Shown: positions 1,204 through 50,641, counted from the first letter of the stretch. The stretch is 51,059 nt of DNA from Kiritimatiellota bacterium (GCA_013151865.1 JAADHN010000153.1:53435-104493); one strand, 5' to 3'. Numbers and translations: made by a program. Notes: a model not told the origin generated them from the letters alone.

Positions 1204-3465
1204 CTATTCTCGGAGTTGCTCCAGGAGGGCGTCGACCAGGGCCGCTGCACCGGTCTGTTCCGGAGAGAGGCCCGGACAACGCAACGCCTCCGCTGCGCCC
1301 GCGGCGGAGTACACGGTGCGAACCAGCGTCGCCGCCTCCCGGGGCAGGGATTCTCCGACGATCACCGACAGTGGCCAGGGAGCGGACAGTGCAAGCAGCC
1401 CCCCCACGTCGCCGTACTTGACCGCCCCCGGAACGAACATGGGGTCATCCACTCGGTCCAAATCGTCGAAGCGGAAACCGCGACCGTCGACGGCCGCGAA
1501 AGGCACGGCCTCTCCCGTCACGAGGCGTGCGGCGGCGACGACCGCACCGGCAACGCGGCCCGTCCCCATCAGGCAAATACGCCGGGGTGCATCAGCGGCC
1601 CTTTGTGCGGCCGCCAAAGCGGTCAGCACGTCATGGACCCGTCGGCAGAACAGCGGTGGGTTATAGCCGAAAGTGTAGCCCACGTATGGAGCTTTGCCGC
1701 CGGGCACAAGTCTCTGCCGGGTGGGTGGGTGCTTGGACCCCGGGAATTCGCCCTGATCGAGCATGTCGATCCCTGCCACGGCAACGCCGCTTTCCAGCAG
1801 AGTCCGAACTTCCGGTCGGGGCGAACCGCCGGGCTCGAAAAGACCGCTCTTGCCGTCGTCCGTGACCCAGAGAACGAGGTCGCCGGCCCAGGAAGGCGGT
1901 TCGAGAACGAGTGCCGGCACCTGCTCGTGCCATGTCGTATTGTCCAGGAGCCAGAGGTCGACGGCAAAGGGACCGGCCATGGTCCGACCGACTTGACGCA
2001 TCTGAACGTCGCCGGCGCTATCGAGGCTGCGCCCGAGGATGGTCTGCCATGCCCCGCCGATAACCCGGCGAAAGGCCTCCAACCCCGCCCGGTCCCGGGG
2101 GACGAGCCCCCGGAACTGCTCCTCCCATCGCTTCGTCCACTCGCGAAGAAGACGGCGTTCCAACGCCTCGCCCTTCCGGTCGCCGGCAGGGCGAGTCGAT
2201 TCATCCCACACGCTCAATTCGCTGCCGGAGAGGAAAGTGTAATCGCGTTCGAGCACCGGATCCTCGAATCCGAGGTGGAAGAAACGATTGAGGAAACTAT
2301 ACATTCGGCCTCGGCTGACACTGTTGTAATTGTGGCCGAATTGCGGAAAAGAAAACAACGCGACCCGGTCCGGCGCGCCGAGTAGTTCGTAGAGATGTTT
2401 CAGCTCCGGGAAGCCTTTTTCCGGCATCTGCCGGGTCCAGTCGTCGGCCGCGGTCATCCCCAATGGCCGCGGTTTCTCTTCCCGGAAAGCGTCCGGGTGC
2501 GCGGCCAAGGCGGCAATATCCACGTTTCCCGCCCCGATGCGGAGGTAAGAGGCGTTTTCGCACGTACAGCCGCCCTGCATGGCCGTGGATACCATGACAG
2601 CGGGAAAGAGCAGAGCAGGCCGGTCGTCGATGGCGCCGAGAATGAACGTCTGGGTACCGCCCCCGCTGGCGCCGGTGACGGCGATCCGGTCCCGGTCCAC
2701 GTCCGGCAGGGAACAGAGGAAATCCAGGGCGCGAATGGAATCCCATGTCTGCAGCCCCATCATCGTTTGAAGCCGAAGTTCGGCGGCCGGACTGAAGAAT
2801 CCCCAATCGGAACGTGTATTCATGGCGTCCCGCATTCCGGGAGCGTGAGGCAACTGAATCGAGTCCGCATAACCGATCATGTCGTACACGAAGGCGGTAC
2901 AACCCATGCGGGCCAGCTGCACGCAGCGGGCCTGTATCGGGCTCCGCCCACCCTCCACAAACCGTTCCGCACCGTCGGCGATTTGTCGGCGAATGTTCCT
3001 GGGACCGGCGGCTTCGGCCGCGTCGTAAAAGCGCCCACCCGGCCAGTGGCCGTGCGGGCACAGTACGCCCGGACGCCCGCCCTGCGGCGCGGGTGCCTTC
3101 GGGCGATACAGCGTGCCGGTCACGAAAAAACCAGGGATCGATTCGAAAAACACTTTCTCGACCGTGTAGTCGTCGAACTCGCGGCGACCGTGAACGACGG
3201 CGTTGAGCGGGGTCCGCGGCGGCATGGGCCAAAGTCCGACGGCAAGCAGTACTTGCCGCCGCAGTTCCGCGGCGCGCACCGCCCATTCTTCCGGAGAACG
3301 AATGCGCCGACACGGAAAATAATCGTTCAAGGTACGCAACTTTTTCAGACGCTGATCGTCGGGCCGGGCACCCGCGGGCATGACACGAGGGGCAGCGCCG
3401 AAACTCACGAAACAGGCAGGCAGAAACGCAGCACCGAGTCGAAGGACGGAATGAGAATTGTTCAT
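1204..3465 (-). CDS. Secreted two-domain alpha/beta hydrolase, acetyl xylan esterase-like
   Basis: The 753-residue product starts with a probable signal peptide (about 1-25). An alpha/beta-hydrolase domain of the acetyl-xylan-esterase/dienelactone type follows. It shows LCPHGH (about 135-140, oxyanion region), the nucleophile elbow GASGGG with Ser267, and a candidate His in the segment FPQFGHNYN near 380. The C-terminal half (about 480-750) resembles a second hydrolase fold without a clear GxSxG motif and may be non-catalytic. Such proteins are common in PVC bacteria and are thought to deacylate plant or algal polysaccharides; the substrate cannot be read here. The ATG at 3465 has GAGG nine bases upstream. 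A GTG at 3480 in the same frame would add five residues ahead of the signal peptide and is less likely. It is divergent from the GH-like gene that starts at 3832. Confidence 0.8.
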   Translation of the reverse strand: MNNSHSVLRLGAAFLPACFVSFGAAPRVMPAGARPDDQRLKKLRTLNDYFPCRRIRSPEEWAVRAAELRRQVLLAVGLWPMPPRTPLNAVVHGRREFDDYTVEKVFFESIPGFFVTGTLYRPKAPAPQGGRPGVLCPHGHWPGGRFYDAAEAAGPRNIRRQIADGAERFVEGGRSPIQARCVQLARMGCTAFVYDMIGYADSIQLPHAPGMRDAMNTRSDWGFFSPAAELRLQTMMGLQTWDSIRALDFLCSLPDVDRDRIAVTGASGGGTQTFILGAIDDRPALLFPAVMVSTAMQGGCTCENASYLRIGAGNVDIAALAAHPDAFREEKPRPLGMTAADDWTRQMPEKGFPELKHLYELLGAPDRVALFSFPQFGHNYNSVSRGRMYSFLNRFFHLGFEDPVLERDYTFLSGSELSVWDESTRPAGDRKGEALERRLLREWTKRWEEQFRGLVPRDRAGLEAFRRVIGGAWQTILGRSLDSAGDVQMRQVGRTMAGPFAVDLWLLDNTTWHEQVPALVLEPPSWAGDLVLWVTDDGKSGLFEPGGSPRPEVRTLLESGVAVAGIDMLDQGEFPGSKHPPTRQRLVPGGKAPYVGYTFGYNPPLFCRRVHDVLTALAAAQRAADAPRRICLMGTGRVAGAVVAAARLVTGEAVPFAAVDGRGFRFDDLDRVDDPMFVPGAVKYGDVGGLLALSAPWPLSVIVGESLPREAATLVRTVYSAAGAAEALRCPGLSPEQTGAAALVDALLEQLRE

Positions 3466-3831
3466 CTTCAGGGACCTCACCTGTTTGCCTGGGCGAAGGT
3501 TGCGTGGCCGGGCTCAAACTATAGCCCCTTTAATTGAAATCGGACCGCTGTCGCCTCACGTGGGATTGCCCGCCACCCCGTTCCGCGGCATGGGCGTGTC
3601 CCGGGCCGCGGCGGCCCCATTGCAAGATCCGGGCCGGATTTCTGTTGGACTCATGCCGTGCGCAGGCGGCCCGCCCCGGTTCCGAAGCCGGAAAGGTTCC
3701 CGCAGAACCGAAGGAAGCGATCAAGGTCGGATCTGTCGAAAAGTTTCTTGGGCCGGTGTAGGTTGAGGCGGTTCCGCAAACCCGGGCCGCGATGCGAACT
3801 CCGGTGCCGACCCAACTTGGGAGGTGGCGCA
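3466..3831. other. Divergent intergenic region, promoter not resolved
   Basis: This 366-base region separates two divergently transcribed secreted-protein genes and must carry promoters for both. On the minus strand a TATAGT (3523-3518) could be a -10 for the hydrolase, but no acceptable -35 precedes it. For the plus-strand gene only the ribosome binding site GGAGG, just before 3832, is clear. A small hairpin, GGTTC-ccgca-GAACC, lies near 3695-3709. Confidence 0.4.
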
Positions 3832-6800
3832 ATGACACCGAAGACTTGGACGACGGGTGCGATCGTATTCGTTCTGAACCTTGTCGGCATGGCGGCCCCG
3901 CCGCGGACCCCGTTGTTGTGTCCGCCGGTCGCCCGCGGCCGCATCGTCCTGGACGGCAAATTGGATGAGCCCGCCTGGCGCGACGCCCAGCAAGCCTTGC
4001 CGGTGGCGGACATCGCATCCGGCGCGGCGGTCCGCCGGCAACCGACCGTCCTGGTTCTGCGGGACGCAACAACCCTCTACGTCGGAGCACGCCTGCCCAA
4101 GCCGAAAGGCGTCCGACCGAAGACCGCAGCGACGAAGCACGACGGCCCGGTGTGGGCCGACGATGCGCTCGAGGTGTTTCTCGATCCCGGTCGAACGCGC
4201 TCGAAATACTTTCAGTTCGTGGTCAACGCCGCCGGGGTCCGTTGGGACTCGTCCGGCAAAGACAATCGCTGGAACGCCCCGTGGCGGGCGGCCGTTTCGA
4301 CGACACCGGACACCACGGCATGGACGACCGAAATCGCGATCCCTTTCGCCAGTCTGGGCGGCCCACCGCAACCGGGCGCCGCGTGGGGATTCAACGTGGC
4401 CTGGGATCGGCAGACACCGTCGGCACGGGTGATGAGTTGGGCGGCGATGCGGGGCACACTGCACCAACCCGACGCATTCGGCCTGTTGCGGTTTACGGCG
4501 AACGCGCCGAGTGTACGTGCGGCGGAAATCCGCCTCTCACCCAGGCGCGGCAAAGTGGTCCTCGGTCTGCGGGTCGCGGCTGCCGATGGGCCTGTGACGC
4601 TGCGATGGTGGTTCGGTCCGGCGGACCGACTCGTCCAACGGCAGCAGGCAATAGTGGCCAAGGGCAGCGCCAAGACGGTGACGTTCCGGTCCGAACTGCC
4701 CCGGAAAGACGGTCTGCCCGAGCAAACCGGCCCCTGCACCGGGATTGTGACGGCCCGCGACAAGGGGACGGATCTGTTCCGAGCGGTCGTCGAAATGACC
4801 ATACCCCCCCCTCTCGACTTCACTGTGCGGAAATACCTGCTGCAAGCGCGTCGAATCGAAGTCGAATTCCAAGGCGGTTTGCTGGTGGAAAAACTGGGCG
4901 GGACGGGCCGAGTCGAGTGCACGCTGACCGCGGTCGGCGGCAAGCGCCCGGCGTCATCGGGCCGGACCGCCCTGGACAAGGCCGGACGCGGGACCGTGAC
5001 GCTCGACATTCGGGATGTCAGGCCGGGCCGGTACGAGCTTTCGGCGCGCGCATTCGCCGCGGACGGGAAAACTGTCTTCAACCGCCACCTCGACACACTC
5101 GATCTCCCCCCGCGACCCGAATGGCTCGGGAACCGAGAAGGATTCAGCGATAACGTCTTGGCGCCGTGGACCCCGATCGAAGTGCGGGGCTCGGCGGTAC
5201 GGCCGGCGTTGCGGGAATACCGCTGGGGCGCGCTTCCCTTCCCCGAAAGCGTGACGGCACGCGACAAGTCCATGCTGGCCGGGCCGATTCGGCTCATTGC
5301 GGTTGTGGACGGCCGAAAACAGGTCTGGCGGGGATCCGGGCCAAACTTTTCCAAGAAGACCCCGGCCCGGGTCGAATTCAGCACGCAGGCGCGAAGCGCG
5401 GATGCCGCTGTGCGCGGCAATCTTTGGTGCGAATACGACGGGTGTATCCGCTGCGACTGGGAACTCACCCTGGAACGCCCCGATACGCGCCTCGACAGCC
5501 TGGTGCTGGAGATCCCGTACCGCGCCGAACACGCACGTTACCTTTACCACTATCCCGGCCGATGGCGGTCCCGTTTCAACGCGGGCGCCCTGCCGCCGGA
5601 GGGCGCCATGATGGGTTTTCGTCCCTTCGTCTGGCTGGGAGACGAATGGCGCGGATTCGCTTGGTTCTGTCCCTCGGACGAGGCGTTTCGACCGGGAGAT
5701 CCGAACCGTGTAACCGAAATCGTGCGGCAGGGCGATACGGTTCTGCTGCGCATTCACTTGCTGGACAAACCCGAATTACCCGGCCAGTCGTTCCGGGCCA
5801 GGTTCGGGTTCGAGGCGACCCCGGTCCGGTCGAACCCGGAAGATGTTTGGGACTACCGCATCGTGCACACGGGCAACTACGGTCTCGAAAAGCGGCCTTG
5901 GTCTCCGCCGTTGTCTGTTCGTTGGCCGGCGAACGGCAACTTGGACGTTCGCGAAGGCACCCTCGAAGCGTGGGTGCGCCCGCAGTTCGACCCGAACGTC
6001 CCCGTCAAGCCCGGCGACCCGGGCCGCGGACGGTTCAACCGCAATTTCTTCCTCTTCGATTTCGGCGGATGGACGGTGGGGTACTACTGGAACATCGACG
6101 ACCGGGGCATGCGCTTGTATATACGCTCCCCGGACGGCAAGTATCCCGTCATCCTGGGAGCGCGCTGCAACTGGAAAAAGGGCGAGTGGCGCCACGTCGC
6201 GTTTTCGTGGGGGCGCGAGTTGCGTCTCTACAACGACGGCAAGCTCGTGGCGCGGCGCTCGTACCGGGGTTTGCTGCCGGTCGTACCGCGCGATTTGCGC
6301 GGCGGCAGCATCCGGCTCGGCGGCGGACAATGCGACATGGATGTGGACGACTTTACCGTCAGCAACGAGCAACACGAACCGCGCGGCGCCCACGCGGCAC
6401 TGGCGCCGGACGGACATGCCCTGCTGCTCGAATCGTTCGACACCATAGCGCGAACGCCGTCCGGAGTACACACGGTCCCGACAACAGCCCGCGGCGGCCG
6501 CGGCACCGCGGATCCCGACGTGCGGATGGTCCCTGGTCGATTCGGCTCGGCGGCGGCCTTGGCGTACCACGGACCGCCGGTCACGACGCTTGACCATTAC
6601 CGTAAGCTGGGCGTCCGGACCATCTGTTTCCACGAACATTGGTCTCGGATCCAAAATTACTTCGCACCGGCCGACCCCGAAGGCCTCCGCCGCCTAGTCA
6701 AGGCCTGCCACGAACGCGGCATTCGCCTCTTGGTCTATTATGGCTACGAATTGAGCAACATCGCCCCGGAATGGGACCTGTACCGGGACGAAATCTTGGT

Positions 6801-7704
6801 TCGGCCCCGGGCGGGCGGCTACCATCGCCAGCCCGAACAACGGTGCTATATCTGCTGCTACCGATCGCCCTGGCAGGATTACCTGGCCCGGGCCATTGCG
6901 CAGACCATGGACGAATACGGCGTCGACGGCGTCTACCTGGACGGAACGGCCAATCCGCACGGGTGTGCGAACTCCGCACACGGTTGCGGGTGGACCGACG
7001 CGGGGGGACGACGACACCGGACCTACCCGTTCTTTGCCGTCCGCCAAATGATGAAACGCATCTACACCATCGTAAAAACGCGCAACCCGACCGGACTTGT
7101 GAACGTGCATCAGTCCACATGCATGACCATCCCGTCGGTCGGTTGGGCCACGAGCTATTGGGACGGCGAGCAGTTCGGCGGCATCCCGCGCGACCCGAAA
7201 AACCGCCCACTCGACGTCCTGCCGCTGGACGCATTCCGGACCGAATTCATGGGCCGGAACTGGGGAGTGCCCGCCGAAATGCTGTGCTACGGCCGACCGT
7301 ACACGTACGCCGAGGCCTTGGCCATTGCCCTGCCGCACGACGTGCTCGTGCGTCCCAACAACATCGAATTGGCGGCAAGCATCTGGAAGACGGCGGCGGA
7401 CTTCGGTCGGAAGCAGGCCCGCTGGCTCCCCTACTGGGAGAATGGGGCGGAGGTCGCCGTCACGCCCGCCGCGGTGAAATGCAGCCTTTACACACGCGGG
7501 GCCCGCGGTGTGCTCGCGGTGATCAGCAACCTGGGCGATTCGCCGGCCGCAGCGCGTATCGCACTGGACCGGCGGCGACTCGGTCTGTCCGGAAAACTTC
7601 GGGCCCGAGACGCCCTGTCCGACAAGTCTATCCCTTGCCCCGACGGCGTCCTCAACCTGAAGCTGCAGCCGCTCGAGTTCCGTCTGCTGATCATCTCGAA
7701 ATAA
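3832..7704 (+). CDS. Large secreted CBM9-like / LamG-like / TIM-barrel glycoside hydrolase-like protein
   Basis: The 1290-residue product has a signal peptide (about 1-22). Next is a CBM9/DOMON-like carbohydrate-binding domain (about 35-220), recognised by GRIVLDGKLDEPAW and the AIPFASLG region. The middle is beta-rich, with a concanavalin A/LamG-like sandwich (about 700-860, EGTLEAWVRP). A C-terminal TIM-barrel of the GH-D/DUF6067 kind (about 920-1210) carries YGVDGVYLDGT near 1027-1037, where the Asp is a candidate catalytic residue, and a Cys/His-rich loop after it. A final beta domain completes it. It probably acts outside the inner membrane on a polysaccharide; the substrate is unknown. 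The ATG at 3832 has a strong GGAGG. Upstream in-frame codons have Arg-rich, non-coding character and were not used. Confidence 0.78.
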   Translation: MTPKTWTTGAIVFVLNLVGMAAPPRTPLLCPPVARGRIVLDGKLDEPAWRDAQQALPVADIASGAAVRRQPTVLVLRDATTLYVGARLPKPKGVRPKTAATKHDGPVWADDALEVFLDPGRTRSKYFQFVVNAAGVRWDSSGKDNRWNAPWRAAVSTTPDTTAWTTEIAIPFASLGGPPQPGAAWGFNVAWDRQTPSARVMSWAAMRGTLHQPDAFGLLRFTANAPSVRAAEIRLSPRRGKVVLGLRVAAADGPVTLRWWFGPADRLVQRQQAIVAKGSAKTVTFRSELPRKDGLPEQTGPCTGIVTARDKGTDLFRAVVEMTIPPPLDFTVRKYLLQARRIEVEFQGGLLVEKLGGTGRVECTLTAVGGKRPASSGRTALDKAGRGTVTLDIRDVRPGRYELSARAFAADGKTVFNRHLDTLDLPPRPEWLGNREGFSDNVLAPWTPIEVRGSAVRPALREYRWGALPFPESVTARDKSMLAGPIRLIAVVDGRKQVWRGSGPNFSKKTPARVEFSTQARSADAAVRGNLWCEYDGCIRCDWELTLERPDTRLDSLVLEIPYRAEHARYLYHYPGRWRSRFNAGALPPEGAMMGFRPFVWLGDEWRGFAWFCPSDEAFRPGDPNRVTEIVRQGDTVLLRIHLLDKPELPGQSFRARFGFEATPVRSNPEDVWDYRIVHTGNYGLEKRPWSPPLSVRWPANGNLDVREGTLEAWVRPQFDPNVPVKPGDPGRGRFNRNFFLFDFGGWTVGYYWNIDDRGMRLYIRSPDGKYPVILGARCNWKKGEWRHVAFSWGRELRLYNDGKLVARRSYRGLLPVVPRDLRGGSIRLGGGQCDMDVDDFTVSNEQHEPRGAHAALAPDGHALLLESFDTIARTPSGVHTVPTTARGGRGTADPDVRMVPGRFGSAAALAYHGPPVTTLDHYRKLGVRTICFHEHWSRIQNYFAPADPEGLRRLVKACHERGIRLLVYYGYELSNIAPEWDLYRDEILVRPRAGGYHRQPEQRCYICCYRSPWQDYLARAIAQTMDEYGVDGVYLDGTANPHGCANSAHGCGWTDAGGRRHRTYPFFAVRQMMKRIYTIVKTRNPTGLVNVHQSTCMTIPSVGWATSYWDGEQFGGIPRDPKNRPLDVLPLDAFRTEFMGRNWGVPAEMLCYGRPYTYAEALAIALPHDVLVRPNNIELAASIWKTAADFGRKQARWLPYWENGAEVAVTPAAVKCSLYTRGARGVLAVISNLGDSPAAARIALDRRRLGLSGKLRARDALSDKSIPCPDGVLNLKLQPLEFRLLIISK

Positions 7705-8162: not shown

Positions 8163-8174
8163 TCAGCCGAAATC
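8104..8174. repeat. Nested direct and inverted repeat over the helicase gene stop codon
   Basis: GATTTCGGC (8104-8112) and GCCGAAATC (8166-8174) form a perfect nine-base inverted repeat. Between and overlapping them a short unit occurs twice: GTGCCAC followed by GGGATCAGCCG. The first copy, near 8114-8135, has an extra ACAC between the two parts; the second, near 8152-8169, does not. The second copy includes the helicase gene stop codon (8163-8165). It may fold as a terminator for the minus-strand operon or be a tandem duplication of the gene end. Confidence 0.5.
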
Positions 8175-11100
8175 GAACTCGAGCTGCCGTTCCCTCGGGC
8201 GTTTTCGACGAGCACGGGCGGGCGGTCCCATCAATTCGAGGACGTTGGGGTCAATGGCCTCGAGGAAACGAGAAGGGCCCCGGACCAGGGTTTTGCCGAA
8301 CAATTGTCGTTTGGCTGCGCCGGTCAGGTAGAGGACGCGTTCGGCTCGGGTCATGGCCACGTAAAAGAGGCGACGTTCCTCGGCCAAATCTTCCGGTCCC
8401 TCGGCCCCGGGCGGGATATACGGCAGAATACCGTCCTCGCATCCGGCCAGGAACACGGCGGGGAATTCGAGGCCCTTGGCGGCGTGAATACTGAGCAGTG
8501 CCACTTTTTCCGCACTCTTCGAGTAGCCGTCCGCGTCCGCCCGCAGAACCAGACGGTCGAGCAGTGCGTCGAGCGAACCGTCTGCTTGCTCGGCCAGTCG
8601 CACCAGTTCGTTCCAGGCGTCTCCGGCCAAACAGAAGGCGTCGTCCGGAGAGACGGTTGCGGCAAGGGAGGCCAGGGCGTCCGCGGCCTTTCGTCGGCGC
8701 AGTTCGAGCGGGGCCCGTTGAATGACGCCGAGCAGCGCCCGTCCGGGGCCGGAGCGGAAAACCGGTGACTTACGAACCACCTGCACGGGAAGACCGAGTC
8801 GACTCAAGGCTTCCGCCAGGGGCCCGACCAGCGCGTGAAGGCGAACCAGGACCGCGACGTCGCCAAACGTCATACCGCCCATTCCGGCTTCCGCGACCCG
8901 GTCGGAATTCATCGAAAAATGCGCGACGCCGCCGACCCACTTCTCGATTTCGTGCGTGATGAATTCCGCCTCGGCCGCAGCGGTCGGCGCCTCGTGGACT
9001 CGAACCCTGAGTTGCCGCTGCCAAGCCGCCTCCGCCGAGGCCGAAATCGCCGACCGTCCAGGCGCCAACACTTGGGCCGCGGTGCGCACGATCCAGGCAT
9101 CCGAACGAAAGTTGGTCTCCAGTACCACGTGGCGGAAGTCCGGGTAGTCCCGTTGGAAATCCGTGAAAGCGGTGCCGCTCGAGCCGCGGAAGCCGTAGAT
9201 GGCTTGGTCCGGGTCGCCGATGACGAAGAGCCCACGCCCGTCGGGGCGCAATCTGCGGACCAGGGCGTACTGGTCCGGACTGACATCCTGGAATTCGTCC
9301 ACGCAGATCCACTCGAGCGCGAGCGCGTCCCGGATATGCGGGTACGCGTCCAGTAGCCCGACCACGCGCGGAACCAGGGAACTGAGTTCGACCAGCCCGG
9401 CCGCTTCCAGTGCGGCGGCATAGGCCGGATAGCCAGGGACATCGTGCGGACTCCGCAACTCGCGCCGGGCGGCCTCGATTTCATTGAGGAACTCCCGGGC
9501 CGCGGCCGGCTTGAGCCCGAGTCGGTCGACCGCCAGGTCACGAGCCGCATCGGAGTCGAGGAGGCGGAAATCGGGCGGCAGGCCGGCGGCTTCGGCCCGA
9601 CCGCGGAGCAAGTCGAGACAGAAGGCATGGAACGTACCCACAGTCAGTCTTCGGGCCGCAGCGGGGGAAAGGAGGTTGCCCAGGCGCTCGGTCATTTCGC
9701 GGGCAGCGCGGTTGGTGAACGTGACAGCCAGGATCTGTTCCGGGGCCGCGCCGTGGCAGCGCACGAGCCAAGCGATACGGCGTGTCAGGGCGCGCGTCTT
9801 GCCGGTCCCCGGCCCGGCCACCACCAGCACGGGCGCTTCCACGGTGGTCACCGCTTGGCGCTGAGCCACGGTGAGACCTTCGAGGATTTCACCGCCCGGC
9901 AGGCGGAAGAGCAGCGGCTGGGTCGGCTCGGAAGCCGCCCCGCCGGACCCCGGTCCGGCGGCGATCTCCTTGCGCAGGACACCGAGCCGGTAAGCCGGTC
10001 CCGCAGATTCGCGCACAGCGGCGACCGGGGGAGACGCGGGCGCCGGGCGAGCAGGAGCAACGCGCTGCACGGCGAGCAGAATCATTTGCCGCTGCACACG
10101 GTCCTTCTCCCCAGGGGCGAACACACGGATGACCCCGTACTCGCCGTCGAACCCGCCACGGCGGACGACGTTGCCGTCGCGCACTCGGCGCACGGCTTCC
10201 CCGATCAGCGCCGGTCCGACTCTCTCGATGTCGTCGGGCGGCAACTCCCGCAGGATGCGCAGTTCCGGCCCCAGGCGTTCGAGCAGACGGCGGTACGCCC
10301 TCTGGACTTTCTTCGTGTTTTCACCGCACTCGAACAGTTCGGCCAGGAGTTCCGGCAGGGGAATGATGTGTTCGCACGGCAGCGCATTATCGGGCCGGGC
10401 GCCCTTCGGTCGGTCGGCCAGTTCGGTCACGCGGTGCAGGACGCCGAGCACGAGCGGCTTGCCGCAGACCGGGCAGAGGTTGTCGTGCGACAAGCTTTCT
10501 TCGGGTTCGAAACAGACGCCGCACTTGCGATGTCCATCGAGGTGATACTTGCCTTCTTCCGGAAAGAGATCGAGGGTGCCGCCGAACCGTTCCGGGTCTT
10601 TGTCCCGGAGTGCGTCGCGCATGGCGAAAAAATCCGGGTCCGTGCGAAAAATGTTGGCGTTCCGCGCCATCCTTTGGGGCGAGTGCAGGTCCGAATTCGA
10701 GACCAGGACGAGTCGATCCAGGGCGCTGACCCGCCAGTTCATGGGCGGGTCGGACGAAAGCCCGGTTTCCACGGCAAAAACGTGAGGAGACAGGTCCCCG
10801 AAGCATTCTTCCAATGAATCGAATCCGGATTTGGACCCCAACATGGAGAACCACGGCGTCCAGATATGTGCGGGTATCAGGTACGCATCCGGGTTGGTCT
10901 CGAGTACGATATCGAGCAAGTCTCGGGGATCGAGCCCGAGAATGGGGCGACCGTCCGACTTGAGGTTGCCAAGGGCGTCCAGGCGCCGATTGATGCCGGC
11001 GACGGTCTCGAGGTCCGGGGCCAGAACCAGGGAATGCACTTTTCGAACCCGGCCCCCGCGTTTGTAAATATGGCTGATCTCGGCCGTGAGCATGAACTCC

Positions 11101-11357
11101 ACGGGCCCTCGGCAGGCGGCCGGCACCTCACCCTCTGCCGCGCGTGCGAACTCCGCACGCAGTCGAAAGAGGCCCGGTACAGACCCGACAAGCTTTTCTC
11201 CGATCTCGGCAAACCAGGCAGGGTGCGTAAAATCGCCGGTACCCACAACGCGAATACCCTTGAGTTGGGCCCAGCGATGCAGACCCTCGAGGTTGCACTC
11301 CCGACTGGTAGCCCGAGAAAGATGGGAATGAACGTGCAAATCCGCCGTGAAGACCAT
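8163..11357 (-). CDS. EndoQ-type PHP endonuclease fused to UvrD/PcrA-like helicase
   Basis: The 1064-residue product joins two DNA-repair enzymes. Residues 1 to about 430 match endonuclease Q, which nicks 5' of deaminated bases. They include the PHP metal motif DLHVHS (His8, His10), SDLHS near 222-226, and a four-Cys zinc finger (Cys279, Cys282, Cys295, Cys298). Residues about 485-1064 are a superfamily 1A helicase with Q-motif GLTVAQRQAV, Walker A GPGTGKT (515-521), Walker B DEFQD, motif III GDPDQAIYGFRG and a C-terminal VAMTRAERVLY motif. A low-complexity Pro/Ala/Gly linker joins them. The ATG at 11357 is supported by the EndoQ N-terminus (MVFTADLHVHS) and by a TGATG one-base overlap with the upstream HD gene, implying translational coupling. 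It probably acts in the cytoplasm on deaminated DNA, unwinding from the nick. Confidence 0.9.
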   Translation of the reverse strand: MVFTADLHVHSHLSRATSRECNLEGLHRWAQLKGIRVVGTGDFTHPAWFAEIGEKLVGSVPGLFRLRAEFARAAEGEVPAACRGPVEFMLTAEISHIYKRGGRVRKVHSLVLAPDLETVAGINRRLDALGNLKSDGRPILGLDPRDLLDIVLETNPDAYLIPAHIWTPWFSMLGSKSGFDSLEECFGDLSPHVFAVETGLSSDPPMNWRVSALDRLVLVSNSDLHSPQRMARNANIFRTDPDFFAMRDALRDKDPERFGGTLDLFPEEGKYHLDGHRKCGVCFEPEESLSHDNLCPVCGKPLVLGVLHRVTELADRPKGARPDNALPCEHIIPLPELLAELFECGENTKKVQRAYRRLLERLGPELRILRELPPDDIERVGPALIGEAVRRVRDGNVVRRGGFDGEYGVIRVFAPGEKDRVQRQMILLAVQRVAPARPAPASPPVAAVRESAGPAYRLGVLRKEIAAGPGSGGAASEPTQPLLFRLPGGEILEGLTVAQRQAVTTVEAPVLVVAGPGTGKTRALTRRIAWLVRCHGAAPEQILAVTFTNRAAREMTERLGNLLSPAAARRLTVGTFHAFCLDLLRGRAEAAGLPPDFRLLDSDAARDLAVDRLGLKPAAAREFLNEIEAARRELRSPHDVPGYPAYAAALEAAGLVELSSLVPRVVGLLDAYPHIRDALALEWICVDEFQDVSPDQYALVRRLRPDGRGLFVIGDPDQAIYGFRGSSGTAFTDFQRDYPDFRHVVLETNFRSDAWIVRTAAQVLAPGRSAISASAEAAWQRQLRVRVHEAPTAAAEAEFITHEIEKWVGGVAHFSMNSDRVAEAGMGGMTFGDVAVLVRLHALVGPLAEALSRLGLPVQVVRKSPVFRSGPGRALLGVIQRAPLELRRRKAADALASLAATVSPDDAFCLAGDAWNELVRLAEQADGSLDALLDRLVLRADADGYSKSAEKVALLSIHAAKGLEFPAVFLAGCEDGILPYIPPGAEGPEDLAEERRLFYVAMTRAERVLYLTGAAKRQLFGKTLVRGPSRFLEAIDPNVLELMGPPARARRKRPRERQLEFDFG

Positions 11358-12010
11358 CAGAAATCGCTCCCCTCGACTTCGCGCGCAAGCTGTTCGAAAA
11401 AGTCGTCCATGAATCTGCGGCGGCGCACGGCGAGTCGGCGGCCCTCGTCGGTAAGCATACACCCGGGGACCTTGCGCAGTTTCACGAGGTATTCGCGGAA
11501 AGCGGTGTCCTCGGTGCTGTAACTGTCGGACGCCAATGCTTCGGCGGCCGTGTTGTGGAGCCGCGCCCCGAAGCGTCCGGCAAAATGGAAGGCCCGTCCG
11601 ATCCCAACCGCGCCGAGCGAATCCAGCTTGTCGGCGTCGAACACGACTTTGCTTTCGAGGGTGGCCGGCATCTCGCCGTTCCGAGAGCGATACCGGTGGG
11701 TGCGCACGCAAGCCGCCACATGCTCAATGAACGCGACGTCGGAAATCCCGGCGGCCTCGAGCACGCCGCGGGCCAGTCGGGCACCGAACTCGGCGTGGCA
11801 AGTTTTCCCGCGGTCTGCCAGCTCGCGCGGCCGACCGATGTCGTGAAGCACGGCCGCGAACTCCACCACCGTCGCATCCGCTCCCTCGACGCGAGCAAGG
11901 TGCCGGGCGTTCCGCAACACTCGCTCGGTGTGGTCCCAATCGTGACAAGCCGGGACAGCGGTCAAGGCGCGCCTGACTTCTGCTTCGACCCGGGAGAAGA
12001 ACTGCTTCAA
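11357..12010 (-). CDS. HD-domain phosphohydrolase, YedJ/YpgQ-like
   Basis: The 217-residue cytoplasmic protein has the metal-binding HD pattern: His in HDWDHTERV (about 23-31), LHDIGR (about 54-59), a downstream H in TCHAEFG, and FDADKLDSLG (about 123-132). This matches the small HD hydrolase family of E. coli YedJ and B. subtilis YpgQ, reported to act on nucleotides. The start is TTG at 12010 with GGAG eight bases upstream. It is the first gene of a two-gene minus-strand operon and overlaps the EndoQ-UvrD gene by one base. This suggests, without proof, a nucleotide-pool or repair-linked role. Confidence 0.85.
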   Translation of the reverse strand: MKQFFSRVEAEVRRALTAVPACHDWDHTERVLRNARHLARVEGADATVVEFAAVLHDIGRPRELADRGKTCHAEFGARLARGVLEAAGISDVAFIEHVAACVRTHRYRSRNGEMPATLESKVVFDADKLDSLGAVGIGRAFHFAGRFGARLHNTAAEALASDSYSTEDTAFREYLVKLRKVPGCMLTDEGRRLAVRRRRFMDDFFEQLAREVEGSDF

Positions 12011-14408: not shown

Positions 14409-17111
14409 TTGCTGCCTTGCTACAAAGAATGGGTTGCGGCATGGCTCGCGGCCGGCGCCCTGGTCGGCGCCGTCCAAGGCGGCGCCGACCAGGTGGTTTG
14501 GAGATTTCCGCAAGGCGAAGTCCGCTTTGCCCCGCAGACACGGCAGGTGACGGTCAGACTCGGCGCGATCGCCTTTCAACCTTTGGTAGGGGCCGGTCCG
14601 ACTCGGGTCGGGTCGGGAGGTCGAATACTCCCGCCGAAGCAGGAAATCCGACTTCAAGAAATGGAACGTCTACCGGACGGCCGCCTCTATTGTGTTTATG
14701 AAAGCACAGTGGCGGAAAAGACAGCGCGCTTCGCAGTCGAAGTGCAGGTCGCGACAGACAACACAGGGGACGGAACGTCCACCATCGTTCTACACCTGCG
14801 TTGGCACGCGGACTCCGCAGATTGGGAAGGGGTATGGCCCGGGTTCGTGACCGGCCTGCCCCGGCACACGCCGCTTTTCTTCTATCGCTCCGCCGAGGCG
14901 TACGGCGGGCAAAGCGGACCGGCAACCTACTTCTGCAAGACGACAAAGGGGCCGATCTGGCTGTTTGCCGAGTGGGATGTTTCCCATTCGAGCCTGAACG
15001 GCTTTCGGAAAATGACACTCCCGAAGGCAGGTGAAGTCAACCCCAACTTCCCGGTAATTCTCAGCGCCGAGCCCCGAAAGGGTGGGGCCGGCCCGTTCAG
15101 TATCGCCGGCGAGACAGTTTACCAGCCCGACACGACAGGGCGTCGCCTGACTTTGGACGACGTACTGGTCGTGCGCGTCGCGGACCGGTTATGGAACGCC
15201 GTGCCGACGCCGGCACAACCCCCGAGTCCGTATCGAGACGAATTGGCCCGCAGCGTGTACGTGGATTGCTGGGGCCAGCAGCACGCGTCGAAATGGGAGC
15301 ATTGGCTCAATTTGCTCGGGCAGGTGACCCGTGGCCGCATCCGGCTTTACACCATTCTACAGAACTGGCAGGCGGGCGGGTTCGACGCGCTCCTTCCGGA
15401 CTCGGTACGGATGCCCGACCTGCCGCCAAACGCTTCCGTCGGCACGGTCGCCGAGCTGCGGCATCTTTGCCAGACGGGCCGAAAATACGGCCGGTTTGGG
15501 TTTCGCACCAATTATATCTATCCCAAATCCCGCTCACCTTCGGTCAAAGCCGGGGAAGCGAAACGGGCGAAAACCCCTTCGGGGAAGGATCGTGCTTTTA
15601 TTCGACCGCGCGACTTGATCAAGCTCGCCTTTCGACAGGAACCGGAAATCAAAGATCTGTTCGATCCGAATTGCACATTCTCCGACCAACTCGGCAGTGC
15701 CGGCGCTGCGGGCGCCTATATCGATTTCGAAGCCCGTTGGGGCACGCATTCGCTACGAGAGACATGGGCTTGCCTCAAAACCCTGTGCGAGTACCTGCGC
15801 CAGACGCATGGCGGCCCGCTCAGTAGCGAAACGCTCAACAGCGGCTATCTCATCGGGGGCTGGCTCGATACGGGCGACTACGGCCTGTTCGAGGGGCACA
15901 CGCGGAGCTTGGCCCCCGACTATAAGCTCCGTAAGTTACAGCAGCTTAGCGTGATGCACGGAGTGGGACTTGGGTATCGTTTCTTCTTTGCCCCCCCCTA
16001 CGGCGGCACTGACAAGATCCCGCGGGGCAGCGCACTGTACGCCGCACCGGGCCCAGCCCAAGACGATTACCGGGCCTGCGAAGTCCTGTTCGGCAACGGC
16101 GCATATCTGTACCTCACCCCGGTCTCGAGATGGCGTCAGATGCTTTCCGAAGTCGTCCAGATCGGAGCGCTGCAACGTCGGTACGCTTTGACGACCGTCA
16201 CCCAGATCGCCTATCGAAACCCCAAGACAGGGAGTTGGGGCACACTCGAGGAGCTGATTCGGGCCGGCGTCAACGTGACTCCCGTGCGCTGGATACCCCA
16301 GCCCGAGGAACTGCTTTGTGCACGAGTACGATACTCGAACGGCCTTGAAGTGGTCGTGAACCGTGCGAAGTCCGCAATCGAGATCCAATGCAGTCGATTC
16401 CGGTTGACCCTGCCCCGGTATGGATGGGCCGCCTGGATGCCGGACGGACGAACGGTCGCGTTCAGCGCTTACTGGCCCGGCACGACGCACCGAGTGGATT
16501 ATCTCGAAGACAAAGAATGGGGATGGCGGTTCCTCGACCCCCGGGGGCGGACCGTGGACGGAGTGAGCCGTCCGACCCTCTTTGAAAACGGCAGGGCAGT
16601 CGTCGAGCTGATCGAGGACACCGAGAAAGGCGATCTTTTGCGCATCGACGGCAGGGAACACCCGGGATCACCCCCCGGGCCGCCGCCGCCCACGCGCATC
16701 GATTTCCGATTCGAGCGTCGACTCGAGGGCTGGCAGGCGGCCCGGGACTTGGCCCCGTTCGAAATCAGAAACGGTGTGCTCTACATGGTTACGCGCGGAG
16801 GCGATCCGTTCACCGTTTCCCCGCCTCTGAACGTGGAAGGCGACACTGTGCGGGAGATCGCAATTCGAATGCGCACGAGAGAGAATGGGATCGGACAACT
16901 GTTTTGGGCGAGCACCGTCGCACCGCTGACCGAAAAATCGTCGGTCCGCTTCAACGTGGTCGGCGACGGGAAGTTCCATGAATACCGCTTGGTCGTGGGG
17001 AACCATCCCCTGTGGAAGGGACACATCATTCGCACACTTCGGATCGATCCGCTTTCACACGATGCCGAAACCGTGGTGGAAATCAGCAGCGTCCAGGGAC
17101 TGCCTCCGTGA
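14409..17111 (+). CDS. Secreted glycoside hydrolase-like protein, DUF5696-like
   Basis: The 900-residue product has a signal peptide (about 1-25). An N-terminal beta-sandwich (about 27-260) is followed by a TIM-barrel-like region (about 270-640) with conserved-looking acidic/aromatic segments (YVDCWGQQ near 278, YIDFEARWGTHS near 437, SSETLNSGYLIGGWLDTGDYGLFEGHT near 475-500). A short beta domain comes next. The C-terminus (about 763-900) is a carbohydrate-binding-like sandwich beginning RIDFRFERRLEGW. The general look is that of DUF5696 or uncharacterised GH families in PVC bacteria; the catalytic residues cannot be assigned. The start is TTG at 14409, chosen because GAGGAG (14395-14400) is eight bases upstream and the signal peptide follows at once. 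It may be co-transcribed with the nucleotidase. Confidence 0.72.
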   Translation: MLPCYKEWVAAWLAAGALVGAVQGGADQVVWRFPQGEVRFAPQTRQVTVRLGAIAFQPLVGAGPTRVGSGGRILPPKQEIRLQEMERLPDGRLYCVYESTVAEKTARFAVEVQVATDNTGDGTSTIVLHLRWHADSADWEGVWPGFVTGLPRHTPLFFYRSAEAYGGQSGPATYFCKTTKGPIWLFAEWDVSHSSLNGFRKMTLPKAGEVNPNFPVILSAEPRKGGAGPFSIAGETVYQPDTTGRRLTLDDVLVVRVADRLWNAVPTPAQPPSPYRDELARSVYVDCWGQQHASKWEHWLNLLGQVTRGRIRLYTILQNWQAGGFDALLPDSVRMPDLPPNASVGTVAELRHLCQTGRKYGRFGFRTNYIYPKSRSPSVKAGEAKRAKTPSGKDRAFIRPRDLIKLAFRQEPEIKDLFDPNCTFSDQLGSAGAAGAYIDFEARWGTHSLRETWACLKTLCEYLRQTHGGPLSSETLNSGYLIGGWLDTGDYGLFEGHTRSLAPDYKLRKLQQLSVMHGVGLGYRFFFAPPYGGTDKIPRGSALYAAPGPAQDDYRACEVLFGNGAYLYLTPVSRWRQMLSEVVQIGALQRRYALTTVTQIAYRNPKTGSWGTLEELIRAGVNVTPVRWIPQPEELLCARVRYSNGLEVVVNRAKSAIEIQCSRFRLTLPRYGWAAWMPDGRTVAFSAYWPGTTHRVDYLEDKEWGWRFLDPRGRTVDGVSRPTLFENGRAVVELIEDTEKGDLLRIDGREHPGSPPGPPPPTRIDFRFERRLEGWQAARDLAPFEIRNGVLYMVTRGGDPFTVSPPLNVEGDTVREIAIRMRTRENGIGQLFWASTVAPLTEKSSVRFNVVGDGKFHEYRLVVGNHPLWKGHIIRTLRIDPLSHDAETVVEISSVQGLPP

Positions 17112-48226: not shown

Positions 48227-50641
48227 TCAATAGCGCTCTTCGTCCGGGGCAAGGGGCAGGCGGATGTAAAAAGTCGTCCCACCGCTTCCGGTTTCGAAAG
48301 TGATCCGGCCACCGTGTTCTTCGATGGTGCGTTTGGCAATGGCCAGCCCCAACCCGGTCCCGCTGGATTTACCCTGAGTCACAAAGGGCTCGAAAAGCGT
48401 CTCCTGGATGTCCTCGGGAATCCCGGGACCGGTGTCGGACGCCACCAATTCAACCCCCCCGGCCAAAGGACGGCAGCCCAGCGTGAAAACCCCGCGCTGC
48501 CCCATGGCTTCGGCCGCGTTCCGGCCCAGATTCATCAGAACCCGAATCATCTTGTCTCGGTCGGCCCTCACGGTTGCGCTACAGGCGATCTGCGATGCCC
48601 AACGGATTTCTGTGCCCGGGTACGCGTCCCTCAGTACCGCCAGAACGTCCTGGACTAGCATGCTGACATCCACGTCGCTCAGGTCGAGGTGACTCTCGTT
48701 CCGGCTATACTCGAGGACTTCTTGGGCCATACTGCTGATCTGCTCGATCCTGGATTGGACCAAAGCCGCCCAATCCTCGTTTCCGGCAACCTGACCGGCG
48801 TTCGCCCGAACCAGCTCGACATACCCCATCACAGCACTCAGGGCATTGCGAATGTCGTGCACGATCATTGCGGCCATCTGGCCCACGGCGGAGAGTTTCT
48901 CGCTGCGGACTAATTCTCCTTGGGCGGCCTTGAGGTCGCGCATGGCCCGTTCGAGCTGGCGATTCTTCTCCGCAAGGTCGGCGACGAGCCGCAGGTTGTC
49001 CAACAGGAGCGCCGCCTGTTGAGCGAGCATACCGATCAGGCGCAGGTCTTCGTCGGTGAACCAGTCCGTTGGCGAAACATCGGAGGGGCGTTTGTTATAG
49101 AAATTCAAGACGCCGATAGTCTCGTTTCGTACAATCATCGGTACGGAAAGAAAAGACTCCGTGGGCACAGCCCCCGTACTGAAACGGGGATCCTCACGCA
49201 GGTCTCCCGGTACCAGCAGCACGGATGAAGACTCCAAGAACTTGGGGTTGTGGCGTTCCTCGAACGCCCTGAGAGCCGGAGTGTCGTCCTGAGTGAACCG
49301 CCCGCCGGGTTCGTTGGGAAACCAGTACCAAACGCCGCCCTGCTGAACGAGCGTCAGGCTCACGGCGTCGCAACCGATGGTCCGTCCGATCAAATCCACC
49401 AGAACTTGAGGGGACTCGTCGGCCGCAAGGTCCGCCGCAGACAGCCGACTGGAATTCATCACCGCCGCAAGCTCGACATTCTTCTGGCGGACGGCGGCCC
49501 GGGATTCCGCGATCCCCAAGGCCAGTACGATTCCCAGGTTGGCCGCAAACAAACCCACGGGCGGAACCAGCTCAACCATGTAACTGAAACGGAAAAAGAT
49601 GAAAAAGGCAACCGCTATCCAGCCCGCAATGACCACGAGGCCCAGGGTGCCCGCCAGCAGGGGACTCAAACGCTTGAACGCGCTGATACTGAGGAAAGAA
49701 AAGGCAAAAAGCATCGCCGTAAACGTCGCAACCTTCTGTCGTCGCAGCACTTTCCCTGTCACGATGTTGTCCATGATCGTCCCCTGCACGAGGACACCGA
49801 ACATCTGCCCGAGCGGCGTGGCAAGCACGTCCGTGTTCACTTGGCCAAGGGCGGTCTGGCCGATCAGGACGATCTTGTCTTTGAAGGCGTCCGACGGAAC
49901 ATTGCCCTCGAGAAGTTCGAACATCGTTCGCACTTCGAATGCCGCCTGCTGCCCGTAATAATTGATCATCAGCTCGCCGTCCCGAGTCAAAGGCAGACGG
50001 TCGACCACCGACGCCGCTCGCGACGGTTCCGTCGTCGAACCGGCCAGGAAACGACGAGCAGCCTCGATCCCGAGCGCATAGTAGATACGCCCCCCGTACT
50101 CGATGGCAAAAGGAACGGCACGACATCTGCCGTCGACTGCGGGGGGAACGTTTATGTGAGCCAAGTCCACGGCGGCCGTGCTCAATTCGGGGAAACTCCG
50201 GGTCAGCGCCGGTACTCGCCGTACCGCCCCCTTGCCGACGGCGTTGCGCCTCAGCGTGCTGGGGCAGAACACCGGAAGGATCACATTCCCCGCTTCCCGA
50301 ACTGCCCGGACCAACTCGCGGTCGGCGGCAGGTTCGGACCGGACCGGAAAGAAAACGTCAAAGCAAATCACACGTGCGCCGGCGGCCTTAAGCTTCCGGA
50401 TCGCCTTGGCATAAACGGTCCGCGGCCACGGCAATGGACCAATCTCGCGAATGCACTGTTGGGTAATGCCGACAATGGTGACCGGTGACGGCTCCAGACG
50501 ATAACCGCGAAAAAGAAAGCGCGCATCGTGAGTCAGCAGCTCCAGGGGCTCGAATACCCCGGCCAGATACAGCGTCAGCACGACCCCTGCCGTCAGTAGG
50601 GGCCATCGCCCGTGATGCCACCAGTTTTCTACCGATCTCAT
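48227..50641 (-). CDS. CHASE2-GAF sensor histidine kinase
   Basis: The 804-residue membrane kinase has an N-terminal membrane helix (about 12-30), a periplasmic CHASE2 domain (about 30-330), three membrane helices (about 330-400), a GAF domain (about 410-570), a coiled coil (about 570-590) and a kinase core. The phospho-accepting His595 lies in IVHDIRNALS. The N box (LGRNAAEA), G1 (DTGPGIP) and G2 (GTGLGLA) boxes are intact. CHASE2 senses an unknown extracytoplasmic signal. No response-regulator gene is adjacent, so it is an orphan here. The ribosome binding site is weak (AGGA), and a minus-strand TAGAAT (50763-50758) without a good -35 is the only -10 candidate. Confidence 0.9.
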   Translation of the reverse strand: MRSVENWWHHGRWPLLTAGVVLTLYLAGVFEPLELLTHDARFLFRGYRLEPSPVTIVGITQQCIREIGPLPWPRTVYAKAIRKLKAAGARVICFDVFFPVRSEPAADRELVRAVREAGNVILPVFCPSTLRRNAVGKGAVRRVPALTRSFPELSTAAVDLAHINVPPAVDGRCRAVPFAIEYGGRIYYALGIEAARRFLAGSTTEPSRAASVVDRLPLTRDGELMINYYGQQAAFEVRTMFELLEGNVPSDAFKDKIVLIGQTALGQVNTDVLATPLGQMFGVLVQGTIMDNIVTGKVLRRQKVATFTAMLFAFSFLSISAFKRLSPLLAGTLGLVVIAGWIAVAFFIFFRFSYMVELVPPVGLFAANLGIVLALGIAESRAAVRQKNVELAAVMNSSRLSAADLAADESPQVLVDLIGRTIGCDAVSLTLVQQGGVWYWFPNEPGGRFTQDDTPALRAFEERHNPKFLESSSVLLVPGDLREDPRFSTGAVPTESFLSVPMIVRNETIGVLNFYNKRPSDVSPTDWFTDEDLRLIGMLAQQAALLLDNLRLVADLAEKNRQLERAMRDLKAAQGELVRSEKLSAVGQMAAMIVHDIRNALSAVMGYVELVRANAGQVAGNEDWAALVQSRIEQISSMAQEVLEYSRNESHLDLSDVDVSMLVQDVLAVLRDAYPGTEIRWASQIACSATVRADRDKMIRVLMNLGRNAAEAMGQRGVFTLGCRPLAGGVELVASDTGPGIPEDIQETLFEPFVTQGKSSGTGLGLAIAKRTIEEHGGRITFETGSGGTTFYIRLPLAPDEERY

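Follow-up and report, generated by a model that had tools for sequence, protein, structure and literature searches.

We examined a 51,059-nucleotide stretch of DNA from a Kiritimatiellota bacterium (GCA_013151865.1, JAADHN010000153.1:53435-104493; hereafter, the window), in which a single gene at positions 8163 to 11357 encodes a 1064-residue protein that joins an EndoQ-type nuclease to a UvrD-type helicase. The gene has a stop-free frame from an ATG at 11357, and its product is organized, from the N terminus, into an EndoQ-like half with a PHP domain and a four-cysteine (Cys4) zinc site (residues 1 to 415; 10113 to 11357), a disordered linker (residues about 416 to 490; 9888 to 10112), a helicase half of the SF1A UvrD/PcrA type with a shortened 2B region (residues about 491 to 1040; 8238 to 9887), and a predicted C-terminal sliding-clamp-binding motif, QLEFDF (residues 1058 to 1063; 8169 to 8186). 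The linker holds a candidate for a second clamp motif in a weak form, QPLLF (residues 480 to 484; 9906 to 9920). All of these features lie on the minus strand, as does the gene immediately upstream (11357 to 12010), which encodes a 217-residue HD-domain hydrolase of the YedJ/YpgQ-like type from a TTG start. An earlier, sequence-only reading of this DNA had proposed a one-base overlap between the two genes, and this is what we find: the ATG of the fusion and the TGA stop of the HD gene share one base in TGATG (11359 to 11355). A plausible ribosome-binding site for the fusion, read from the sequence as GAGGGGAG, lies inside the HD gene (11367 to 11374, minus strand). A longer open reading frame (ORF) of 1182 residues (8163 to 11711) was rejected as the protein because its upstream extension falls inside the HD gene, and the ATG at 11357 is the likely start.

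Profile, structure, and residue evidence all bear out the proposal that an EndoQ half and an SF1A helicase half reside in one protein. The NCBIfam EndoQ profile TIGR00375 is matched over its whole length by residues 5 to 410 of the fusion, and a PDB sequence search matches the EndoQ half to PfuEndoQ (5zb8) with an E value of 5e-45. Mutation of E76, H84, or H139 abolishes the activity of PfuEndoQ (PMC8307549), and alignment with that enzyme places E93, H108, and H164 of the fusion at these positions. Together with the HxH motif of the PHP domain (H8 and H10), these residues are invariant in the fusions that cover them, save for one with Q at H8. The base-gate residues G199 and S201, counterparts of the G169 and S171 that exclude normal bases in PfuEndoQ, are kept in 71 of 71 fusions. 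The zinc ligands C279, C282, C295, and C298 are all present in the window protein, C282 being replaced by Arg in 29 of 71 relatives. An AlphaFold2 model of the fusion, searched with Foldseek, recovers the EndoQ fold against 5zb8 at a TMt of 0.89 and a root mean square deviation of 2.5 A. The nuclease half thus has in common with PfuEndoQ and Bacillus EndoQ (PDB 5zb8 and 7k30) the PHP-zinc architecture, the catalytic E/H/H, the base-gate G/S, the Cys4 site, and the fold, as well as a clamp or PCNA motif behind the nuclease domain. PfuEndoQ, however, is a standalone protein, whereas the window protein continues from EndoQ into a UvrD-type helicase and carries its main clamp motif at the helicase C terminus.

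UvrD helicase families cover residues 496 to 1012 (Pfam UvrD-helicase, 1.8e-56; UvrD_C, 1.6e-33), and PcrA and UvrD are the matches of this half in the PDB sequence search. All of the SF1A motifs are present (AGPGTGKT, VDEFQD, GDPDQAIYGFRG, IHAAKGLEF, and VAMTRAERVLYL), and across 71 complete fusions these motifs and the key EndoQ residues are nearly invariant, with the exception of the second zinc Cys, which is often Arg. The AlphaFold2 model, built with a 63-sequence alignment of fusions, has a predicted local distance difference test score (pLDDT) of 87 and consists of two confident domains, a disordered linker at residues 430 to 488 (pLDDT <50), and a disordered tail at residues 1047 to 1061; the linker ranges from 45 to 164 residues across the fusions. 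Foldseek aligns the model with UvrD-DNA complexes at a TMt of up to 0.75. The fusion helicase therefore resembles the SF1A 3'-5' helicases UvrD and PcrA in all of its motifs and in its fold, which matches UvrD, PcrA, and Rep structures, but it differs from them in forming a separate lineage with an N-terminal nuclease, in the short 2B region of the window member, and in a C-terminal clamp motif that is not seen in the ordinary UvrD tails of relatives.

The predicted clamp motifs are the strongest mechanistic lead to emerge here, and the clamp-binding tail is a feature absent from the sequence-only reading. The last residues of the window protein read ...RERQLEFDFG. Of the 71 complete fusions, 58 have a clamp motif at the C terminus where shuffling of the tails predicts 1.8, and in most of them it is a canonical QLSLF, QLELF, or QLKLF with which the protein ends. 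A second motif, QxxLF, lies past the EndoQ domain or in the linker in 36 of the 71 (1.2 expected), usually 11 residues beyond that domain. Among the relatives of the window protein (loci L032 to L035) this second motif stands at the linker end as QLDLF or QLELF, where the window counterpart is the weak QPLLF. None of 17 ordinary UvrD tails from the relatives shows the same pattern, although one (L019) has a looser QPSLF. In three Omnitrophota loci (L083, L087, and L112) EndoQ and the helicase are encoded by separate neighboring genes, and there the EndoQ proteins end in QRSLF (L083), QLTLF (L087), and QLSFF (L112) and the helicases in QMTLF (L087) and QLNLFDL (L112). The motifs of the fusions and of the split genes alike agree with the published definition and consensus of pentameric and hexameric clamp-binding motifs (PMC11139829). 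Archaeal EndoQ binds PCNA via a C-terminal PCNA-interacting protein (PIP) box, and a beta-clamp motif has been noted in bacterial EndoQs (PMC4858679). Separately, two distant standalone EndoQs of the host phylum (L145 and L147) have the clamp-motif-like C termini QFSLGIS and QFSLPL.

A GTDB survey that took the EndoQ half alone as its query showed the family to be large, with at least 589 confirmed relatives, and we classified the best 80 loci among them. These comprise 64 complete fusions, 6 loci that are cut by a contig end yet enter the helicase, 5 split or frame-broken neighbors, 4 standalone EndoQs, and 1 locus that was not classified. Recurrence of the fusion in relatives, which the sequence-only reading had set as a check, is thereby established (70 of the 80, counting the 6 cut loci). 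Within these loci the fusions span about 15 phyla by record title: Thermodesulfobacteriota, Myxococcota, Chloroflexota, Gemmatimonadota, Actinomycetota, Planctomycetota, Elusimicrobiota, Melainabacteria, Latescibacterota, Fibrobacterota, KSB1, Binatota, SAR324, Pseudomonadota, and the host phylum. Within the host order, the fusion is present in the window genome (G000) and in G001, G004, G005, G023, G031, and G045, and standalone EndoQs occur in G006, G008, G010, G011, and G012. Judged from these sequences, the fusion is the form that this EndoQ branch commonly takes in bacteria, a point that the earlier account does not make.

The groups in the EndoQ tree largely follow phyla. In this quick tree of moderate support, most standalone EndoQs of the host phylum (two bear the title Kiritimatiellae) fall among the fusions, which suggests that they have probably lost the helicase. 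The helicase tree gathers every ordinary UvrD into a single clade (support 100/100) that excludes the helicases of the fusions and split loci; this topology fits a single old EndoQ-helicase partnership, but the root was placed at the midpoint and the tree is therefore not proof of one. At two loci of the order (L033 in G031 and L034 in G023) the fusion follows recA and then a metallo-beta-lactamase-fold gene that ends 20 bases before it, a DNA-repair neighborhood. At L034 a cinA-like gene also precedes recA (neighbor names come from reading the sequences). The 2015 paper that reported the discovery of EndoQ noted homologues in Bacillus and Desulfovibrio and held that few bacteria have the enzyme. 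We found no mention of an EndoQ-helicase fusion in a literature search that left subscription papers and database annotations outside its reach, and the fusion seems to be undescribed.

From the two folds, the residues of catalysis and recognition, the flexible linker, and the conserved clamp motifs, which are read from the sequence or the structural model, we infer the activities of the protein, its binding to the clamp, and the direction in which it unwinds at a nick. The account that we consider reasonably probable is that the fusion acts as a sliding-clamp-tethered nick-and-unwind repair enzyme for deaminated DNA bases. The C-terminal QLEFDF, joined in many relatives by the second motif behind EndoQ, would keep the fusion attached to the beta clamp. 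The EndoQ half would then flip out a uracil, a hypoxanthine, or an abasic site and nick the strand directly on its 5' side, so that the upstream piece ends in a 3'-OH and the downstream piece has the lesion at its 5' end. The helicase half, moving 3' to 5' as UvrD-type enzymes do, would load onto the undamaged strand where the nick lies and travel away from the 3'-OH, peeling the lesion strand off as a 5' flap and opening the template. A clamp-bound polymerase could extend the 3'-OH across the gap, with a 5' nuclease and a ligase completing the repair. This geometry is proposed because of the known polarity of both the EndoQ and UvrD families. With two clamp motifs in its chain, one molecule could also occupy both sites of the dimeric clamp, and we raise only tentatively the more specific proposal that a single chain so docked combines incision and strand displacement to repair deaminated bases behind the fork without a glycosylase.

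Several observations weigh against the nick-and-unwind account. The match to TIGR00375, at 152.9 bits, falls below the curated equivalog cut-off of 326.6, and the 2B region numbers ~64 residues against 162 in UvrD1, so that it is not a full 2B and the helicase may behave differently from UvrD; Desulfobacterales members have some 75 residues more in this region than the window protein. The earlier description of both halves as intact consequently holds for the EndoQ active site and for all of the helicase motifs but must be qualified for the 2B region and for the profile score. Three relatives (L033 to L035) have no clear clamp motif at the C terminus but do carry QLELF in the linker, and the split Omnitrophota helicase of L083, which is cut by a contig end, shows no clamp motif. 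The distribution across the host order is patchy (~14 of 48 genomes), which argues against an essential role. The window genome, moreover, has two genes of the uracil-DNA glycosylase (UDG) superfamily, so uracil repair in the host would not depend on the fusion. The idea that EndoQ replaces UDG was rejected, UDG-superfamily genes being present in 47 of the 48 genomes of the order. EndoV was not found in the window genome and occurs in only 3 of the 48, and with two UDG-superfamily genes and no EndoV in the host, hypoxanthine may be the more telling substrate.

The clamp motifs point to the replisome, and UvrD/PcrA relatives act in replication conflicts. It is conceivable, if rather unlikely, that the fusion instead serves a replication-coupled surveillance in which a clamp-borne helicase strips proteins or remodels stalled forks and EndoQ cuts only on meeting a deaminated base, the main job of the motor being something other than unwinding from EndoQ's own nick. 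The shortened 2B region, which could alter helicase activity, would suit such a role. A single helicase lineage has nevertheless been tied to EndoQ over about 15 phyla, which suggests that both activities share one substrate.

The sequence-only reading had gone further and coupled the fusion to the HD enzyme. Spelled out as a model, the two would form a dedicated unit, in which the HD protein would clean deaminated deoxynucleoside triphosphates (dNTPs) and the fusion would repair the DNA. The one-base overlap in the window speaks for such a unit, as do two genomes of the order in which an HD gene lies directly upstream of EndoQ (with a 4-base overlap in G012 and ~30 bases apart in G010). For a single-copy gene, three such adjacencies greatly exceed chance. 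The HD protein (Pfam HD, 4.7e-15) also shares the fold family of the YpgQ and YedJ hydrolases (PDB 5dqv and 3gw7) and keeps the metal ligands of YpgQ, a dNTP pyrophosphohydrolase (H27, H56, D57, and D127, equivalent to H29, H58, D59, and D124), along with three substrate residues (R139, F143, and H23, equivalent to R136, F140, and H25). It differs from YpgQ in having E173 in place of H158, a replacement that counts against the unit and hints at a different nucleotide substrate. YpgQ H158 is a ribose/base contact, and all three HD proteins encoded beside EndoQ have Glu at the position of E173. The HD gene is found in 44 of the 48 genomes of the order with or without EndoQ, nearly always as one copy (two genomes have two contig-end fragments), and its tree follows the host families, the three EndoQ-adjoining copies failing to group. 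It adjoins EndoQ in only 3 of the 48 genomes, in two of which (G012 and G010) the EndoQ is standalone, and as far as the flanks reach it is beside neither the other same-order fusions nor any of the 80 wider loci. The supposition that the HD gene always lies upstream of the fusion accordingly fails, the HD protein was rejected as an obligate partner, and the dedicated unit strikes us as improbable. The three adjacencies are likely to reflect an ancestral or locally favored operon and do not characterize the fusion as such. On our reading, the HD gene encodes a housekeeping hydrolase of its own with no standing part in the system, and in the window genome it is probably co-transcribed with the fusion.

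Defense against phage or other foreign DNA is, in our estimation, a shade less credible again. Here the protein would be a one-piece analogue of Gabija that attacks invading DNA containing uracil, hypoxanthine, or other modifications. PADLOC matches the helicase half to GajB, the distribution in the order is patchy, and a review has suggested that Bacillus EndoQ may take part in antiviral defense (PMC8307549). Gabija likewise pairs a nuclease with a UvrD-fold helicase, but it does so as two separate proteins with a defense role, and its GajA nuclease is unrelated: the partner here is the PHP nuclease EndoQ rather than a GajA-type TOPRIM nuclease. The GajB match reflects a generic UvrD fold, and the PcrA model scores higher. 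Searches of plasmids, phages, and viral contigs gave no match, and an origin in a mobile element was dropped on the same grounds. The tree groups largely follow phyla, ten other window proteins that we scanned include no defense gene, and the clamp motifs suggest housekeeping. Finally, the reduced 2B region might mark a relic fusion with one half no longer active, an idea that the near invariance of catalytic residues in both halves over about 15 phyla renders extremely improbable.

Elsewhere in the window, a 1348-residue ORF (3658 to 7704, plus strand) with GH123 N-terminal, CBM9, and laminin-G-like domains is a probable secreted glycoside hydrolase, and a CHASE2-GAF histidine kinase is encoded at 48227 to 50641 (minus strand). 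ORFs of 900 residues (14409 to 17111, plus strand) and 380 residues (2395 to 3537, plus strand) match no Pfam family at an E value of 1e-5.

Within the literature that we examined, the step that follows the EndoQ nick is not established even in archaea. Retention of the helicase fusion in about 15 phyla, together with the clamp tails, suggests a concrete candidate for that step, namely, strand displacement on the clamp. Bacterial EndoQ, which has been described as rare, would appear to be common and largely helicase-fused.

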